From Actinomycetota bacterium (GTDB taxonomy: Bacteria > Actinomycetota > Actinomycetes > JACCUZ01): a DNA stretch of 50,173 nucleotides. Below, in pieces: positions 6-50,173 of the stretch; the stretch's first letter is position 1, and each line of letters begins with the position of its first letter. Under the pieces are notes generated by a model, which was not told where the DNA came from, did no database searches, and saw only the letters and a list, made by a program, of their open reading frames with translations. A program made the position numbers and the translations under genes. The stretch lies in NCBI GenBank assembly GCA_030841185.1, contig JAVEDB010000099.1, positions 1-50,173 of the forward strand. The letters are read 5' to 3'.

Positions 6-209
6 ATGACCGACCAGCCCGACACACCCCTCACGTCCGACACGGGCGAGGACGAGGAACGCCGCGACGTCCTTGACGCGATGGCCGTCTACAGCGCAGA
101 CGGTCAGGTCGACGACGCCAGCGGCAATGATGCAGCGGCCGGCGCCGCACTCCCCCGGGACAGCGGATCGGAGCCCGAGCCGGACCGCGAGCCGCACGGC
201 CCGAACTAG
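6..209 (+). CDS. small acidic hypothetical protein
   Basis: 67-aa ORF, low-complexity acidic; no recognisable domain. Confidence 0.4.
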   Translation: MTDQPDTPLTSDTGEDEERRDVLDAMAVYSADGQVDDASGNDAAAGAALPRDSGSEPEPDREPHGPN

Positions 210-42219: not shown

Positions 42220-42330
42220 CGAATTGCCCCCTTGACAGACGGTGACGCGCGGCGCACGTTCGGTGAGTGGCGGTAGGGGGGGCCGAGACCCCGGGTCCCG
42301 CGACGACTCGACGTATCACGCGAGGCGCTG

Positions 42331-42375
42331 GGACCTCCTCATAGCTGCCACCCGTCTAAGGACCAGGAGGTCCTC
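42331..42375 (+). promoter_or_regulatory. putative SD-sequestering mRNA leader of the 993-aa protein gene
   Basis: GGACCTCCT (42331-42339) perfectly complementary to AGGAGGTCC (42365-42373); alternative AGGACC-AGGA-GGTCCT hairpin (42359-42374); ATG at 42376. Confidence 0.5.
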
Positions 42376-45357
42376 ATGGACCAGGAGTTCAACGTCGGCC
42401 GCAACACCTACCTCGACCGGGACCAGCGCGGAACAGTGCGCCAGCTCCGGCACATCGACGTGCCGTTCCAGTCCCAGGCGCGAACTCCGCAGCTCGTCGC
42501 TGCCGAGTACCTCCACAGCTTCGCCGACCTCCTCGAGCTGCCCGCGACCAGCCTCTCGCGCATCAGCGAGTCGCCCGCCACGCACCCCGAGGCCGCCGAC
42601 GTGGAGCTGCGCTTCCTGGGTGAGAAACAGCAGTTCGACACGGCCACCGTTGCGTTCCACCAGACCGCCCTGGGTCTGCCGGTCTGGGAGGCCGGCGTCG
42701 CCGTACAGATGAAGACCGCACCCTTCCGCGTCCTGAGCTCGCAGTCGACGCAGCACCCCGATGTCCACGTCGAGCGCCCGAACGACGACTCGCTCAAGCG
42801 GGCCGAGTCCATCACCGCCACCCATTTCGCGCGTTCTCTCGGGCTGCACTTCCGCGGGGGCGACAACCAGGTCGACAGCAAGCAGCTCGAGATCGAAGGC
42901 CGCCAGCTGGTGGTCTACCGCTACGAGGCGGCCAAGGTGCAGCGGGACGGACCTCCGTCGGTGATCGCGCGCGACATCCCGCAGGCGCGGGGCGGGAACG
43001 GCCGGGCCAAGAAGCCCGACGTCCTCGTCGAGGAGCCGCAGGGGATCAACCAGGCGAGCATCCCCTGGCTGCCACTGCCACCGGTGCCGGACAGCATCCG
43101 CGAGGGCCAGCACTACGTGAGCATCAAGATCGACTTCGCCCTCCCGCTTCCGGCGTGGGGAGCGCTGAACTGGACGGCGATCCTGGACGTCGACACGCTG
43201 GCCGTCCTCTACGTGCGACCGCACGTCGACGACGTCACCGGACTCGTCTTCGAGGTCGACCCGGTCACGACCAACGGCGGGCCGTTGCCCACCAGCACGA
43301 GCGCCACCCTGAACCCGGTGCGCGTCTCACGCCCGCTGCTGGGCCTCGCGCCGCCGTCGGGAGGAACCCAGTCCCTTACCGGGGACACCGTGGCGCTGAT
43401 CGACTCCGAGATTCCGACGGTGGTCTTCCCGACTGAGCCCAGTGGGACCAACTTCGACTTCGACGCGCGCACCGACAACTTCTCGGCCGTCAACGCCTAC
43501 GTGCACTGCGACCGGTTCTTCCGGCTCGTCGACAGCATGGGTTTCTCCCGGGCGTCGTACTTCAGCGGGTCGTCGTTCCCCAGCTCAGTGGACCACCGCG
43601 GCCGGATGAACACGACCGACGGCATTGAGGTCAACGCGCACTGCCTGGGCACCACTGGTGGCGGCGGCATCCTGCGGACCACCTTCGCGCTGGCGAACAC
43701 CGGCGACACCGCGCACCCGATCGGGATTGCTGACGACTTCCGGGTCGTCCTGCATGAGCTCGGTGGCCATGGAGTGCTCTACAACCACGTCAGCTCGGCC
43801 AACTTCGGCTTTTCGCACAGTGCGGGAGACAGCGTGGCCGCCATCCTCGCCGACCCGGGAACCCAGGCACCGGACCGCTTCGTGACCTTCCCGTGGGTCA
43901 ACATCGGCCGACGCCACGACCGGCTGCCCAGCGGCGGCTGGGGCTATGCCGGGTCGATCGCGCTCAACCCGTTCGACAACACCCTCGACTACGCGGGGTA
44001 CAAGAACGAGCAGATCCTCTCCAGCACGATGTTCCGGATCTACCGCTCTCTGGGCGGCGACTCGGCCGACCTCAACACGCAGCGCTTCGCCGCGCGGATG
44101 ACCGTGTACCTCATCCTGCGGGCCATCGGCACGCTGAGCCAGGCCACCAACCCGACCACCGGCTCAGGCTTCGAGACGGCCCTGGAGACGGCAGACTCCG
44201 GCGACTGGGTGAGCGAGAACATCACCGGCGGCGCCTACCGCAAGGTCATCCGCTGGGCGTTCGAGAAGCAGGGCGCGTTCCAACCGCCCGGGGCCGCGAC
44301 GCCCAACAACAACGCGGGCGCGCCACCGGCGGTTGATGTGTACGTCGATGACGGGCGGGCCGGTGAGTACCAGTACCAGCCGGTCTTCTGGGACAACCAG
44401 AACGTCTGGAACCGCACGCACGCGGACGGTGGCACCACCCACCAGGACCCGATCGTCAACCGCACCAACTACGCGTACGTCCGCATCCGCAACCGCGGCA
44501 CCCAGACGGCCACCGGAGTCCTGGTCAAGGCCTACCACGCCAACCCGGCGGCCGGCCTGTCCTACCCCAACGACTGGATCCCGATGACCACGGCCCAGCT
44601 CTCCGGGGCGAACGTCCCGGCGAACAACTCCGGCGACGTGATCGTGGGGCCGTTCTCGTGGACCCCCACGCACGTCGGGCACGAGTGCATGTTCATGGTC
44701 GTGTCGGCGACCGGGGACGCCAGCAACGTCAACAACATCGCCGCCGGGGACTCGATCCCCGAGTGGCGCCTGGTGCCGCACGACAACAACATCGGGCAGC
44801 GCAACGTGGCACCGGTCCCGGGTGGTGGCACGAGCGGACTCACCGAGGAGTTCTCGGGGCTGAGCTTCGAGGTCAAGAACCCGCTGCTCAAGCCGGCGGC
44901 CATGCAGCTGGAGTCGAGCCTGCCGCCGCTGCTGTCCGAGCGGGGCTGGAAGCTCGACTTCACCAGCCGCGGCGGTGCCGCCTTCTCCCTGCAGCCCGGG
45001 GAGAGCCGGGAGGTCGTCATGGCTCTCACCAAGGGCGGTGAGTTCACCGCCGGCGAGGTCGAGAAGGCAGACCAGCGCTCGATCCAGGTGGTCGCGCGGG
45101 CCGACGGAATCCTCGTGGGCGGCATGACCTACCAGATGGACCCGAAGATCACCCGACCGAACCGGCCCGGAGCCAACCCGGCGCCGGGGCAGCCCGGGCA
45201 CCAGCACGACGACGGCTGCGGGTGCCAGCCCGACGCCAAGGCCGACACCATGGCGGAGACGCTGTTGCGCTACCTCAACCAGCGCAACCAGCGGGTCCGT
45301 GAGGTGGAGGTGCGCAAGGTCATCCTCGAGATCGAGCTCGAGGACTGCGACGACTGA
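42376..45357 (+). CDS. large leaderless putative zinc metalloprotease with CARDB-like C-terminal region
   Basis: 993 aa; FTP-like N-term (ALGLPVWEAGVAVQMKT), LHELGGHGVLYNHVSSANFGFSHSAGDSVAAILADPG, later VRIRNRGTQTATGVLVKAYH segment; no signal peptide seen. Confidence 0.75.
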   Translation: MDQEFNVGRNTYLDRDQRGTVRQLRHIDVPFQSQARTPQLVAAEYLHSFADLLELPATSLSRISESPATHPEAADVELRFLGEKQQFDTATVAFHQTALGLPVWEAGVAVQMKTAPFRVLSSQSTQHPDVHVERPNDDSLKRAESITATHFARSLGLHFRGGDNQVDSKQLEIEGRQLVVYRYEAAKVQRDGPPSVIARDIPQARGGNGRAKKPDVLVEEPQGINQASIPWLPLPPVPDSIREGQHYVSIKIDFALPLPAWGALNWTAILDVDTLAVLYVRPHVDDVTGLVFEVDPVTTNGGPLPTSTSATLNPVRVSRPLLGLAPPSGGTQSLTGDTVALIDSEIPTVVFPTEPSGTNFDFDARTDNFSAVNAYVHCDRFFRLVDSMGFSRASYFSGSSFPSSVDHRGRMNTTDGIEVNAHCLGTTGGGGILRTTFALANTGDTAHPIGIADDFRVVLHELGGHGVLYNHVSSANFGFSHSAGDSVAAILADPGTQAPDRFVTFPWVNIGRRHDRLPSGGWGYAGSIALNPFDNTLDYAGYKNEQILSSTMFRIYRSLGGDSADLNTQRFAARMTVYLILRAIGTLSQATNPTTGSGFETALETADSGDWVSENITGGAYRKVIRWAFEKQGAFQPPGAATPNNNAGAPPAVDVYVDDGRAGEYQYQPVFWDNQNVWNRTHADGGTTHQDPIVNRTNYAYVRIRNRGTQTATGVLVKAYHANPAAGLSYPNDWIPMTTAQLSGANVPANNSGDVIVGPFSWTPTHVGHECMFMVVSATGDASNVNNIAAGDSIPEWRLVPHDNNIGQRNVAPVPGGGTSGLTEEFSGLSFEVKNPLLKPAAMQLESSLPPLLSERGWKLDFTSRGGAAFSLQPGESREVVMALTKGGEFTAGEVEKADQRSIQVVARADGILVGGMTYQMDPKITRPNRPGANPAPGQPGHQHDDGCGCQPDAKADTMAETLLRYLNQRNQRVREVEVRKVILEIELEDCDD

Positions 45358-45408: not shown

Positions 45409-45532
45409 CCTCGGCACTGATGTATCAGCGCCGGTGCCGCCGCCTCTTGTTCGGTGAGACGGCACCCTCCGGTGGCGTCGACAAGGTGTCGGAGCGCGGT
45501 CGGTCGGATCGCCAGGAACACGAGGGGATGCC

Positions 45533-45894: not shown

Positions 45895-47085
45895 ATGAGG
45901 TCCCCCGAGGAGCGCCTGGCCCGGCTGCTCGACCGCCACAGTGAGTTCCTCCCTGTCGCGTCCGACGACCCCACCGGCGCGATCATCCGCCGCGACGAGC
46001 TGCTCGTACCGGCCCGGCATGCGGCGGCCGTGGAGGAGGCCGCTCGCCGGTGGACCGATGGACGCACCGATGTCGAGGCACTTGGTCTCGCCAGGTTCCG
46101 GCTGCGGGGCGACGCGGATGTCGCCGACCTCATCACCAGCCAGTTCTCCCCTGAGGGCGGCGAGCCGCTCGCTGCCCCGGTGCACATGTTCCGCGGCGAG
46201 CCGAACTATCAGGGTGGGCCCGGAGGTGTCCCCTCACCCGTGCCTACGTCGCTACCGGCACCCGCGACCGCCAGCTCCGGGCACCGGGTCACCGTCGCGA
46301 TCCTCGACACCGGGATCTCCGCGAACCACCCGTGGTTCCCCGCAACGAGCTGGGACGCGATCGACAAAGACGTCGACGACCGGCTGGACGAGAACAACGA
46401 CTACGAGCTCGACGCTCAGGCGGGGCACGGCACGTTCATCGCCGGCGTGGTGCGTCAGCACGCTCCGGGGGCGCATGTCCTCGTCGGCCGAGTGCTCGGG
46501 TCCGACGGTGTCTGCGACGAGATGGACCTGCTGCGCGCCTTGCTGAGGCTGCGGGACAGCAGCGCGGCGAGCCACCACGGGATCGGTGTGCTCAACCTGT
46601 CCCTAGGCGCGTACATGTGGAACGACCGGCCACCCGCCCTTGTCTCGCAGGCGATCGAGAGCCTGGGCCGCGACACGGTGGTTGTCGCGGCGGCCGGCAA
46701 CAACCACAACGACCGGGCGTTCTGGCCGGCGGCGTTCGAGCCCGTCATCGGCGTCGGTGCACTGCGCGCGGATGGCACCGGCCCGACATCGTTCTCCAAT
46801 TACGGGTCGTGGGTCGATGCCTGGGCGCCCGGCGACGAGGTCGCCAGCAGCTTCGTCACGTTCGACGGCCCGAAAGAGAAGCTGCCGGGCACCGACATCG
46901 ACCCGGACTGCTTCACCGGCTTCGCGCACTGGAGCGGCACGTCGTTCGCTGCGCCACGGGTCGCCGCCGAGCTCGCCCGTCGGGCGCAGGAGGAGAAGAG
47001 CTCCCCCCGGGATGTCCGCGATGCGGTGCTTCGGCAGTTCACGGCGCCCGTAAACGCCGCAGCGGTGACGGACGGTGGTCCCTGA
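45895..47085 (+). CDS. subtilisin-like S8 serine peptidase, apparently cytoplasmic
   Basis: Triad motifs VAILDTGIS, AGHGTFIAG, SGTSFAAP; AAGGAG SD 6 nt before ATG 45895; no signal peptide. Confidence 0.9.
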   Translation: MRSPEERLARLLDRHSEFLPVASDDPTGAIIRRDELLVPARHAAAVEEAARRWTDGRTDVEALGLARFRLRGDADVADLITSQFSPEGGEPLAAPVHMFRGEPNYQGGPGGVPSPVPTSLPAPATASSGHRVTVAILDTGISANHPWFPATSWDAIDKDVDDRLDENNDYELDAQAGHGTFIAGVVRQHAPGAHVLVGRVLGSDGVCDEMDLLRALLRLRDSSAASHHGIGVLNLSLGAYMWNDRPPALVSQAIESLGRDTVVVAAAGNNHNDRAFWPAAFEPVIGVGALRADGTGPTSFSNYGSWVDAWAPGDEVASSFVTFDGPKEKLPGTDIDPDCFTGFAHWSGTSFAAPRVAAELARRAQEEKSSPRDVRDAVLRQFTAPVNAAAVTDGGP

Positions 47086-47668
47086 TGAGCACTATCGTGA
47101 CGGCGTGGAACGCGCGGATCTCGGCCAGCTCGTCGTCGGCGCCGCCGGCGGGGACACTAACGCCTGGGACGAGCTCGTGGATCGGTTCTCCGGCCTTGTC
47201 TGGCACATCGCCCGCGGCCATCGCCTCGGCGACGCCGACGCGGCGGACGTCGCCCAGACCGTCTGGCTGCGCCTCGTCGAGTCGCTGCCCCGGTTGCGCG
47301 AGCCGGCGGCCCTTGGCGGATGGCTCGCCACCACGACCCGGCACGAGTGCCTGCGCGTGCTGCGCATCTCGGGCCGCGAGGTGCCCGACGAGTCCGACGC
47401 GCTGGTGGACATCCCGAGCACCGATGCCTCACCCGAGGCGGTCGCCGAGCTCGCCGAGGACCGCCAGCTGGTCCGGGCCGCCCTCGACCGTCTGTCGGAA
47501 CGCTGCCGAACCCTGCTGCGCGCCCTGGCCTATTCCCCCGACGACAGCTACGCGGACATCTCCGCAGCCCTCGGCATGCCGGTGGGCAGCATCGGACCGA
47601 CCCGGGCCCGGTGCCTGCAGCGGCTGCGTCGTGAGCTGGTCGCCGGTGGCGCCCTTGCCGAGGACTGA
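47075..47668 (+). CDS. ECF-like RNA polymerase sigma-70 family factor
   Basis: Region 2 ELVDRFSGLVWHIARGHRLGDADAADVAQTVWLRLVESLPRLREPAALGGWLATTTRHECLRVLR and region 4 YADISAALGMPVGSIGPTRARCLQRLRREL; start 47075 or 47105. Confidence 0.9.
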   Translation: MVPDEHYRDGVERADLGQLVVGAAGGDTNAWDELVDRFSGLVWHIARGHRLGDADAADVAQTVWLRLVESLPRLREPAALGGWLATTTRHECLRVLRISGREVPDESDALVDIPSTDASPEAVAELAEDRQLVRAALDRLSERCRTLLRALAYSPDDSYADISAALGMPVGSIGPTRARCLQRLRRELVAGGALAED

Positions 47669-47679
47669 GGCCGGACGCC

Positions 47680-48135
47680 ATGACTGACATCGACCCTGCC
47701 GACCGGCGCCTTCTCGACCATGTCAGGTCGGCTCTGGACGAGCACGACCCGGTGCCGGACGCCGTCGTCGCGGCGGCCCGGGCCAGCCTGACCTGGCTCA
47801 CGGTCGACGCCGAGCTCGCCGCCCTCGCCGAGGACTCGGCCCTGTCGGCGACCGGAGTCCGCTCCGTCGACACCTCGCGTGTGCTGACCTTCGAGTGCAG
47901 CACCGGGGTGATCGTGCTCGAGGTGACGTCCCTCGGCGACACCCGGCGGCTCGTGGGCCAGGCGGACCGGCCGGCCCACCTGTCCATCACGCATCCCGGG
48001 GGCGACACGGAGGTCGACACCGACGAGCACGGCCGGTTCCAGGTCGAGGGCATCTCGGCCGGGCTGGTCCGGCTGCGCTGCGTCTTCACCGACTCGCCGG
48101 ATGCGCCGATCGTCACGTCCTGGGTTCTGGTCTAG
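47680..48135 (+). CDS. uncharacterised protein in S8/sigma/CHAT operon
   Basis: 151 aa; N-term helical, C-term beta-rich (LSITHPGGDTEVDTDEHGRFQVEGISAGLVRLRCVF) resembling a carboxypeptidase-regulatory-type sandwich. Confidence 0.78.
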   Translation: MTDIDPADRRLLDHVRSALDEHDPVPDAVVAAARASLTWLTVDAELAALAEDSALSATGVRSVDTSRVLTFECSTGVIVLEVTSLGDTRRLVGQADRPAHLSITHPGGDTEVDTDEHGRFQVEGISAGLVRLRCVFTDSPDAPIVTSWVLV

Positions 48136-48140
48136 CACCG

Positions 48141-50173
48141 GTGCCGACGCTGGAGGCTTCCCCGTCGGTCCGCCTGGCGATGGCTGACGAGGCCCTCGCC
48201 TCGGCGTACGACCGTCCTGCCGAGGTGCTCGAGCAGACGAACGAGCTGCTTCGCGGCGGCACCGACGACGAGCCCGCCGCAGTCGCGTTGCGCGCCCGTG
48301 CCCTGGCCCGCCGGTGCACGGGTGACCTCGGCGGCGCCATCGTCGACCTGACCCGCGCGGTGCGGGTCGCCGAGGCGGCCGGACTGCCCCGACGCGTCGG
48401 CGAGGCACGGATGAGTCTCGTGGTCGCCCTGGCGGATGCCGGCCGCACCACCGCGGCACTCGACGAGGCGGAGCGGGCCCGCCCGCTGCTCAAGGGTGCG
48501 GACGTGAGCCGGTTGCTCGCGCAGCGAGCGCTGGTGCTGCAGCGGATCGGCCGGTACGACGATGCGCTGGCCGGCTACCGGCAGGCACTCCCCGGCCTGC
48601 GCCGTGACGGGGACGCGCTGTGGGAGGCGCGCCTGCTCGGCAACCGGGGGCCGTTGCGTGCCTACCTCGGTGACCATCGGGGCGCGGTCAGCGATCTGCG
48701 CCGCTGCGCCGAGGTCGCGCAGGCCAACGGGCTGCGCAACCAACTCGCCCGGGCCCGGCAGAACCTCGGGTTCGCGATGGGCCTCATCGGCGACGTCCCG
48801 GCGGCCCTCGAGCTGCTCGACGAGGCCGCAGAGGTGGGGCTGGACCACGGCTTCGACGACAGCTCTCTGGTCCTCGACCGCGCCGAGGCGCTGCTAATGG
48901 CGGGCCTGGGGGCCGAGGCCGCGGACTGCGCTGCGGCGGCACTGGTCGGGTTGGAAGAGCGTGGCCTCGCCTACGACGCAGCCGAAGCCCGACTGCTGCT
49001 CGCGCGGGCCGCGCTCAACGCCGGGCGTGCGGTCGATGCCCGGGCTGCCGCCGAGCACGCTGCCGGGGACTTCGCCCGGCAGCGCCGCCCGGCCTGGACG
49101 CGGCTGGCCCGCCAGGTCGCCGTGCTGGCTCGCTGGGACGCCGGTGAGCGCGGAGCGGACCTGACCCGCGCTGCCCGGCGCAGCGCCGAGGAGTGCGCGA
49201 GCGCCGGCTGGACCGTCGCCGCACTGAGCGCCAGGTTCGTGGCTGCGCGGTCGGCGCTGGAGTCCGCGTCACTGACGAGTGCGCGGGCGCTGCTCGCCGA
49301 CGTGGCCGTCGCACGAGAAGCCCGCGGTGCCGAGGCGCGGGCGACGGGATGGCACGCCGAGGCGTTGCTGCGGCTGGCCAACGACGACCGCCGCGGCGCC
49401 GAGCGCGCCCTGCGTCGGGCGCTGGCCGTGCGTGCGGAGAACGCGGCCGTGCTGGGAGCGACTGACCTGAGGGCGCATGCCGCGGTCTTCGGTGAGGAGC
49501 TGGCGAGCGCCGGCCTGCATCTCGCTCTCGAGGACGGCCGGGCCGGGAACGTGCTCGCCTGGGCGGAGCGGTCGCGGGCCAGCGCGCTGCAGACCCGACC
49601 CGCTCGTCCCCCGAGCGACGGCGTTCTCGCCACCGAGCTCGGGCACCTGCGGGCCGTCGCGGCCCGGCTGCGGGAGGAGCTGCTCGCGGGTCGACCCGGA
49701 GCCGAGCTGCGCCAGCAGCAGCTGCGGCTGGAGGCAGCGGTGCGGGCCCGGGCCCGGCACGCCCGCGGCGGCCGGGGCCGGGACGGCGACGCGCTGGACC
49801 TGGCGGCATTGACTGAGCAGCTCGGCCGGTGGGCCCTGGTCGAGCTGGTCCGTGACGGAGTCGATCTGCATGCGGTGACGGTGGTCGGCGGCCGGGTCAC
49901 GGTGCAGGCCCTGTGTCGCTACGAGGAAGCCACCGCCGAGACGACGGCGCTCCGGTTCGCGCTGACCAGGCTCGCGCACACCACCGGGTCGGACCGGGTC
50001 CGTGAGCTGGCCGCGCGGGGGCGGACCATAGCCGCCGGGCGCCTCGACGCGCTGCTGCTGGGTCCGCTGCACAAGCAGATCGATGACCGGCCGCTCGTCG
50101 TCGTACCCACCGGGGACCTGCACGCGCTGCCGTGGCCGGTGCTGCCCTCGGTCGTGGGACGCCCGACCGTGGT
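48141..50173 (+). CDS. TPR-CHAT domain protein, truncated by the window end
   Basis: Open frame from GTG 48141 to the end (missing from the ORF track because it runs off the edge); TPR-like repeats; VVVPTGDLHALPWPVLPSVVG is the CHAT PxGxLhxlPwxxL signature. Confidence 0.85.
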   Translation, partial: MPTLEASPSVRLAMADEALASAYDRPAEVLEQTNELLRGGTDDEPAAVALRARALARRCTGDLGGAIVDLTRAVRVAEAAGLPRRVGEARMSLVVALADAGRTTAALDEAERARPLLKGADVSRLLAQRALVLQRIGRYDDALAGYRQALPGLRRDGDALWEARLLGNRGPLRAYLGDHRGAVSDLRRCAEVAQANGLRNQLARARQNLGFAMGLIGDVPAALELLDEAAEVGLDHGFDDSSLVLDRAEALLMAGLGAEAADCAAAALVGLEERGLAYDAAEARLLLARAALNAGRAVDARAAAEHAAGDFARQRRPAWTRLARQVAVLARWDAGERGADLTRAARRSAEECASAGWTVAALSARFVAARSALESASLTSARALLADVAVAREARGAEARATGWHAEALLRLANDDRRGAERALRRALAVRAENAAVLGATDLRAHAAVFGEELASAGLHLALEDGRAGNVLAWAERSRASALQTRPARPPSDGVLATELGHLRAVAARLREELLAGRPGAELRQQQLRLEAAVRARARHARGGRGRDGDALDLAALTEQLGRWALVELVRDGVDLHAVTVVGGRVTVQALCRYEEATAETTALRFALTRLAHTTGSDRVRELAARGRTIAAGRLDALLLGPLHKQIDDRPLVVVPTGDLHALPWPVLPSVVGRPTV

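Follow-up and report, generated by a model that had tools for sequence, protein, structure and literature searches.

An ECF54-type sigma factor with a subtilase, a TPR-CHAT protease and a small linker protein: a possible CRISPR-independent caspase-to-sigma switch in Actinomycetota

The four-gene set and its conservation

We analysed a stretch of 50,173 nucleotides from an Actinomycetota bacterium (hereafter the window), which is an entire contig (JAVEDB010000099.1, our C232) of a draft genome of 3.0 Mb in 277 contigs that is 94% complete. At the right end of the window, genes for a subtilase of family S8, an extracytoplasmic function (ECF) sigma factor, a small protein and a protein with tetratricopeptide repeats (TPR) followed by a CHAT protease domain all lie on the forward strand (Table 1). 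When the sigma gene is started at 47075 it overlaps the stop of the S8 gene; 11 bp separate it from the small-protein gene, and 5 bp separate the latter from the TPR-CHAT gene. The original prediction of a compact operon combining two protease clans with a dedicated sigma factor is borne out by this strand arrangement, this spacing and the domain matches.

Table 1. Features at the right end of the window and in the encoded small protein
Feature	Position	Strand	Basis or remark
S8 subtilase	45880 or 45895 to 47085	+	PF00082 E=1.4e-31
ECF sigma factor	47075 or 47105 to 47668	+	TIGR02937 7.7e-22; Sigma70_r2 E=3.9e-12
Small partner protein, 151 aa	47680-48135	+	Open reading frame (ORF); directly 3' of sigma
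TPR-CHAT, N-terminal 677 aa	48141-50173	+	Window ends within gene; rest on contig C134
Arg61 codon (V-R-S), candidate cleavage site	47860-47862	+	Near-invariant linker residue
Small-protein regions, aa	Helical hairpin 6-56; disordered linker 57-65; beta-sandwich 66-150		AlphaFold2
Putative ECF54-type promoter 1, GTATCACGCGAGGCGCTGGGACCTC	42313-42337	+	Exact GTATCA-N16-CTC match; about 40 bp 5' of 993-aa gene
Putative ECF54-type promoter 2, TGTATCAG-N15-CTCTT	45422-45446	+	Exact match; upstream of S8-sigma-small protein-CHAT
993-aa protein, HELGGHG metalloprotease-like motif	42376-45357	+	ORF
Tentative small ORF, 66 aa	45533-45733	+	ORF call

The sigma factor reaches 77.7 bits with TIGR02937 against a cut-off of 42.9, with region 2 above and region 4 below its cut-off, and has the architecture of regions 2 and 4 only that is typical of ECF sigma factors. 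A review (PMC8999054) defines the group ECF54, found in Actinobacteria, by a genomic context of a carboxypeptidase, a subtilase and a CHAT protein, and proposes regulation by proteolysis on the basis of this context; it cites Huang 2015 and Casas-Pastor 2021 for the group and names a Geodermatophilus as model species. The corresponding full set is found in the window and at most of 60 loci of the class, and two Geodermatophilus loci (L135 and L145) also carry all four genes. On the basis of gene context and ECF domain architecture, we regard the sigma factor of the window as having an ECF54-type context, and the "carboxypeptidase" of that context is almost certainly the small protein, which resembles carboxypeptidase-regulatory domains. 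The combination had been taken as undescribed at first, and this does not stand, because the gene set itself is already known as the ECF54 context. The structure and conserved linker arginine of the small protein, the arrangement at two loci and the forms from Planctomycetota, all described below, were not found in the ECF54 literature that we examined, which did not cover the primary papers of 2015 and 2021; part of the present findings, the promoter above all, may be in those papers. ECF54 seems to be known from gene neighbourhoods only.

The end of the window lies within the TPR-CHAT gene and has an exact overlap of 127 bp with contig C134, as is expected of an assembly-graph overlap. The joined ORF ends at joined position 50753 and encodes 870 aa, and the sole above-threshold CHAT match in the source genome begins at the very end of C134. 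The catalytic dyad expected beyond the window is present in the joined protein (HLATHGHF with His751 and LSACDSG with Cys791), and neither residue varies among the 43 sequences that extend over the dyad. A truncated or dead CHAT protein was thus rejected, as the overlap completes the gene together with its dyad. In a few other genomes (L109 of G358, G228, G279 and G193) a single TGA interrupts the CHAT ORF in frame. G358 has, in addition, a sigma gene divided between frames, and the module seems to decay as a whole.

The distribution of the module was investigated in 395 genomes of the class, using the small protein as bait. A single-sequence search gave 103 hits, and a profile search gave 27 more among CHAT-positive genomes; the profile was run on these genomes and a handful of negatives, and in the remaining genomes a few small proteins that have diverged may have escaped detection. 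With the threshold for the TPR-CHAT family set at a profile E <= 1e-60, 129 of the 395 genomes were positive. Both proteins occurred in 128 genomes, the small protein only in two, CHAT only in one and neither in 264; one of the two small-protein-only genomes is a 75%-complete draft, and the other has a CHAT match just below the threshold. The 395 genomes are not phylogenetically independent, and presence and absence covary even within groups, as in genus g67 of family f19, where two genomes have both proteins and two have neither. The neighbourhood is strongly conserved, contrary to one of the conditions stated in advance as refuting the prediction, and a chance neighbourhood was rejected on the basis of these counts and of the recurring loci.

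Neighbourhoods were inspected at 60 loci in the class, then in 20 more regions, and then at 80 named loci found by the sigma sequence. All four genes occur at 46 of the 80 named loci, including those of Geodermatophilus, Micromonospora, Actinomadura, Nocardioides and Amycolatopsis. At 22 others, a close relative of the sigma factor stands without neighbouring genes for the small protein, S8 or CHAT, which shows that this sigma family extends beyond the module. These sigma-only loci include L119, L122, L148 and L150-L152, several of them from Geodermatophilus and Pseudonocardia, and are perhaps a sister group with other partners. Where both genes are present, the small-protein gene follows the sigma gene in the same direction at all loci but one. 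The S8 and CHAT genes are variable in order and orientation, lying before or after, divergently or convergently. In families f19 and f28, and in relatives of the family of the window, they form a divergent pair at a second site, and the sigma and small-protein genes stay together elsewhere. Because the two pairs occupy separate loci and both persist, we read the module as a sigma pair plus a protease pair, whose joint retention appears to reflect a common function and not their arrangement in an operon. The module has the appearance of a chromosomal feature stably kept in many families of actinobacteria, and not of a mobile island; a neighbourhood with sepH-like and other housekeeping-type genes recurs in several families. 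Geodermatophilus chilensis (L145) has two small-protein genes flanking the CHAT gene.

The two proteases and the linker arginine of the small protein

Both proteases keep their catalytic residues and are predicted to be soluble. In S8, Asp138, His178 and Ser350 (numbered from the start at 45895) are invariant in 42 aligned S8 sequences. The S8 protein of the window has no signal peptide, membrane helix or hydrophobic segment in a hydrophobicity check, and a secreted S8 was rejected, as no signal segment was seen except in one Rubrobacteraceae protein (L185), the only S8 with a clearly hydrophobic N-terminal segment. The TPR-CHAT proteins have no N-terminal membrane segment, and their hydrophobic peaks are internal and mostly in the CHAT core. 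Because of this location of the peaks and the single exception among the S8 proteins, the module is probably cytosolic.

A relative of the TPR-CHAT protein (L037) was modelled as a TPR superhelix followed by a caspase-like domain, with a predicted local distance difference test score (pLDDT) of 91.4 and a predicted template modelling score of 0.87. Its best structural matches are human separase, at the top, the TPR-CHAT protein Csx29 of Craspase, and DdvA. In a comparison of the CHAT domain with PDB by sequence, DdvA (8rot/8rw5) came first with E=1.8e-11, followed by the Craspase TPR-CHAT protein and Csx29 and then by separase. An aspartate 37 residues past the catalytic Cys (Asp828 in the protein of the window) is nearly invariant among the TPR-CHAT relatives. 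In separase, an aspartate at a similar place binds the P1 arginine, which is used here as a lead and not as a test.

The small protein was modelled with AlphaFold2 from 59 sequences at a mean pLDDT of 87.8, with helices at residues 6-22 and 27-56 forming the hairpin and eight strands forming the sandwich; the only run of pLDDT below 50 is at residues 59-61, in the linker between the two. Arg61 lies in this run and is kept in 108 of the 111 rows covering it in an alignment of 117 non-redundant relatives, in which residue 60 is V or L in 85/111 and residue 62 is G, S or A in 97/111, giving the motif [VL]-R-[GSA]; the columns flanking Arg61 are poorly conserved (about 1-2.5 bits). The same arginine is found in diverged proteins of two Planctomycetota loci (L139, GLRGG, E 2e-4; L167, GFRAS, E 1e-3) and of one Rubrobacteraceae locus (L185, GVRSA, E 3e-9), whose genes sit between those of sigma and CHAT, and in a weaker candidate behind the sigma gene of a Burkholderiales draft (GVRGG, E 0.04). 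A single fixed residue in a disordered and otherwise free linker has the look of a protease site, and Arg61 is the candidate cut site.

The small protein has only a sub-threshold match to CarboxypepD_reg and no match in NCBIfam or PADLOC. It was rejected as a carboxypeptidase, because it has no peptidase domain and is predicted to consist of a hairpin and a beta-sandwich. We infer that it is a putative anti-sigma factor and protease substrate.

A promoter motif and the probable regulon

The sigma and S8 genes have an upstream motif in common, GTATC(A)-N16/17-CTC; the forms GTATC-N17-CTC and GTATCA-N16-CTC are the same site if the sixth base is A. GTATC-N17-CTC was found upstream of sigma genes in 27/92 cases (shuffled mean 0.28), of S8 genes in 19/102 (shuffled mean 0.12) and of other genes at the same loci in 17/862. 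Its spacing is sharply 17; the few matches that deviate mostly have 18. Two exact matches lie in the window (shuffles give 0.12), and the source genome has five exact sites, three of which lie within 10 kb at the module, including one on C134. We read this motif as the promoter recognized by the sigma factor itself. It is present at part of the loci only; at the remaining loci either the motif varies or the genes are controlled otherwise. A genome-wide regulon could not be defined with the strict motif, which gave 0-3 sites per genome against control counts of 0-4.

The two promoters in the window suggest that the gene cluster extends leftward, with transcription units starting at 42.3 and 45.4 kb. 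The second lies just 3' of a hairpin-like stretch that follows the gene for the 993-aa protein. Comparisons of this protein with Pfam (to E=10) and NCBIfam (to E 1) gave no family, and part of its C-terminal region resembles module-adjacent proteins at L124 (Micromonospora matsumotoense, with a signal-peptide-like N-terminus) and L077. Because the first promoter precedes its gene, we place it in the likely regulon, as a probable target gene or the first gene of the cluster. For the 66-aa ORF, no convincing relatives were found upstream of S8 at other loci, and it is not detectably conserved.

Further motif sites lie near the module. The third site of the module region (C134:12592-12616, joined about 52121) is about 400 bp before the gene of an AMIN-like protein (PF24837). 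At L149 (13123) and L108 (6309, reverse strand), the motif precedes genes that follow the CHAT gene and encode mutually similar proteins of 105-116 aa (RF..LG.SRW.V) with no Pfam match. At L076, L201 and L064 (Streptomyces-like and other large genomes), it stands before genes for large nucleoside triphosphatase-like proteins adjoining the module, which are possible further regulon members.

A protease-gated sigma switch and its rivals

The closest tested system is the type III-E CASP system, linked to clustered regularly interspaced short palindromic repeats (CRISPR), in which Csx29 cleaves Csx30, an inhibitor of the ECF sigma factor CASP-sigma (PMC10028731). By analogy, the best model of the present module is a CRISPR-free counterpart of the Csx29-Csx30-CASP-sigma switch. 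We tentatively favour a cytosolic, protease-gated ECF sigma switch, in which the CHAT protease cuts a small anti-sigma protein and the freed sigma factor drives its own operon. At rest, the small protein would hold sigma inactive, probably via its N-terminal helical hairpin. A signal, most likely sensed by the TPR superhelix, would activate the CHAT protease to cleave the small protein after Arg61, in the linker that joins its hairpin to its beta-sandwich. Once released, sigma would use GTATC-N17-CTC promoters to transcribe the operon in which it lies, the genes of the proteases and a small number of outputs, which here would include the 993-aa HELGGHG protein. The subtilase would be an accessory protease, with a possible part in clearing away the hairpin after the cut or in processing CHAT. 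The model builds on the observed gene set, co-occurrence, catalytic residues, Arg61 conservation, fold models and promoter motif; from these we infer binding, inhibition, cleavage, the identity of the cutting protease and the signal. The suggestion that proteolysis is coupled to transcription is the part of the original prediction that became the most likely reading; for its part on cell death or conflict, nothing was found that points there.

The likeness to CASP lies in the proposed logic, putative cleavage of a sigma inhibitor, and in a TPR-CHAT protein with the His/Cys dyad that matches Csx29 by sequence and fold. The differences are the additional subtilase, the absence of a Csx30 homologue in a comparison of the small-protein profile with PDB, and the effector: no match to PF03787 of the Cas7-11/RAMP proteins was found in the source genome (94% complete), and a CRISPR link was rejected on this basis. 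In contrast to the ECF54 review, which names no anti-sigma factor, we propose the small protein as one, with a candidate cut site, and we add the promoter motif and the split-locus form. Separase, of clan CD, has a TPR-like superhelix followed by a caspase-like domain as here, but it is a eukaryotic cohesin protease with no sigma link.

Several observations weigh against this switch. The profile of the small protein showed no similarity in PDB to Csx30 or to known anti-sigma domains, and Foldseek gave no match with E below 0.001. The putative preference of the CHAT protease for arginine is drawn from separase and the conserved Asp828, partly from general background. Arg61 could be a binding rather than a cleavage residue, and conservation cannot separate these roles, given that the small protein hardly ever occurs in a genome lacking CHAT. 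None of the separate S8/CHAT loci of f19 showed the motif.

The strongest rival, which we consider unlikely, is that the anti-sigma role falls to the TPR-CHAT protein, with the small protein as an adaptor or sensor. The precedent is Myxococcus xanthus, where the CHAT-domain protein DdvA, a transmembrane anti-sigma factor (8rot/8rw5), controls the ECF sigma factor DdvS, which is active upon DdvA inactivation (PMC4374960); as described above, DdvA ranks first for the CHAT domain by sequence in PDB and is also a structural match. However, DdvA is a single transmembrane protein, whereas the TPR-CHAT proteins here lack an N-terminal membrane segment and are accompanied by a separate small protein. 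All of them retain the dyad, which favours catalysis, and the CHAT gene is often distant from sigma, even at another locus, whereas the small-protein gene stays beside it.

Somewhat less probable is the proposal made for ECF54 from its context (PMC8999054, section 3.3) that there is no anti-sigma factor and that the system stays off because the proteases degrade sigma itself. We ranked it lower because it leaves unexplained the small protein, which is nearly always beside sigma and has no peptidase domain. The near-invariant linker arginine would also be unaccounted for, and no similarly isolated invariant linker residue was noticed in sigma.

The least probable of these readings is a conflict or programmed-death module, with CHAT and S8 as effectors and sigma only timing their expression. 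Conflict systems do contain CHAT and caspase-like proteins, in some cases together with ECF sigma genes (PMC8195603), and a sigma-type motif precedes the protease genes here, but no type III RAMP gene was found in the source genome, and the distribution is broad, stable and chromosomal, with the recurring sepH-like neighbourhood. A known anti-phage defence system was rejected, as PADLOC gave no match for three of the four proteins (sigma, the small protein and the N-terminal 677 aa of CHAT) and only generic subtilase and IetS matches for S8. The EACC2-caspase systems, a genomics prediction in that paper, likewise unite a caspase-like peptidase, a TPR protein and an ECF sigma factor in one neighbourhood; their core domains (EACC2, DUF1822) differ, and the part consulted describes no subtilase or small linker protein.

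The model is directly testable, because it predicts a cut site at one arginine and a promoter. If it holds, about one third of the sampled genomes of the class (130/395), including large 9-Mb genomes and those of Micromonospora and Geodermatophilus, would have a soluble caspase-like protease controlling transcription via one partner. It would provide a defined substrate of a CHAT protease, a promoter reading out the signal and a simple system with which to compare the CASP circuit linked to CRISPR. A CRISPR-independent caspase-to-sigma switch, with a soluble TPR-CHAT protease, a previously unrecognised anti-sigma factor cut at one arginine and a sigma factor activating its own proteases, is a possibility that we hold with reserve; it would probably be the most widespread one known. 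If this is true, the Planctomycetota versions mean that the CRISPR CASP circuit could be a specialised case of an older cellular design. In the two Planctomycetota drafts (L139 and L167), the genes for sigma, the very diverged small protein, CHAT and S8 stand in one row.

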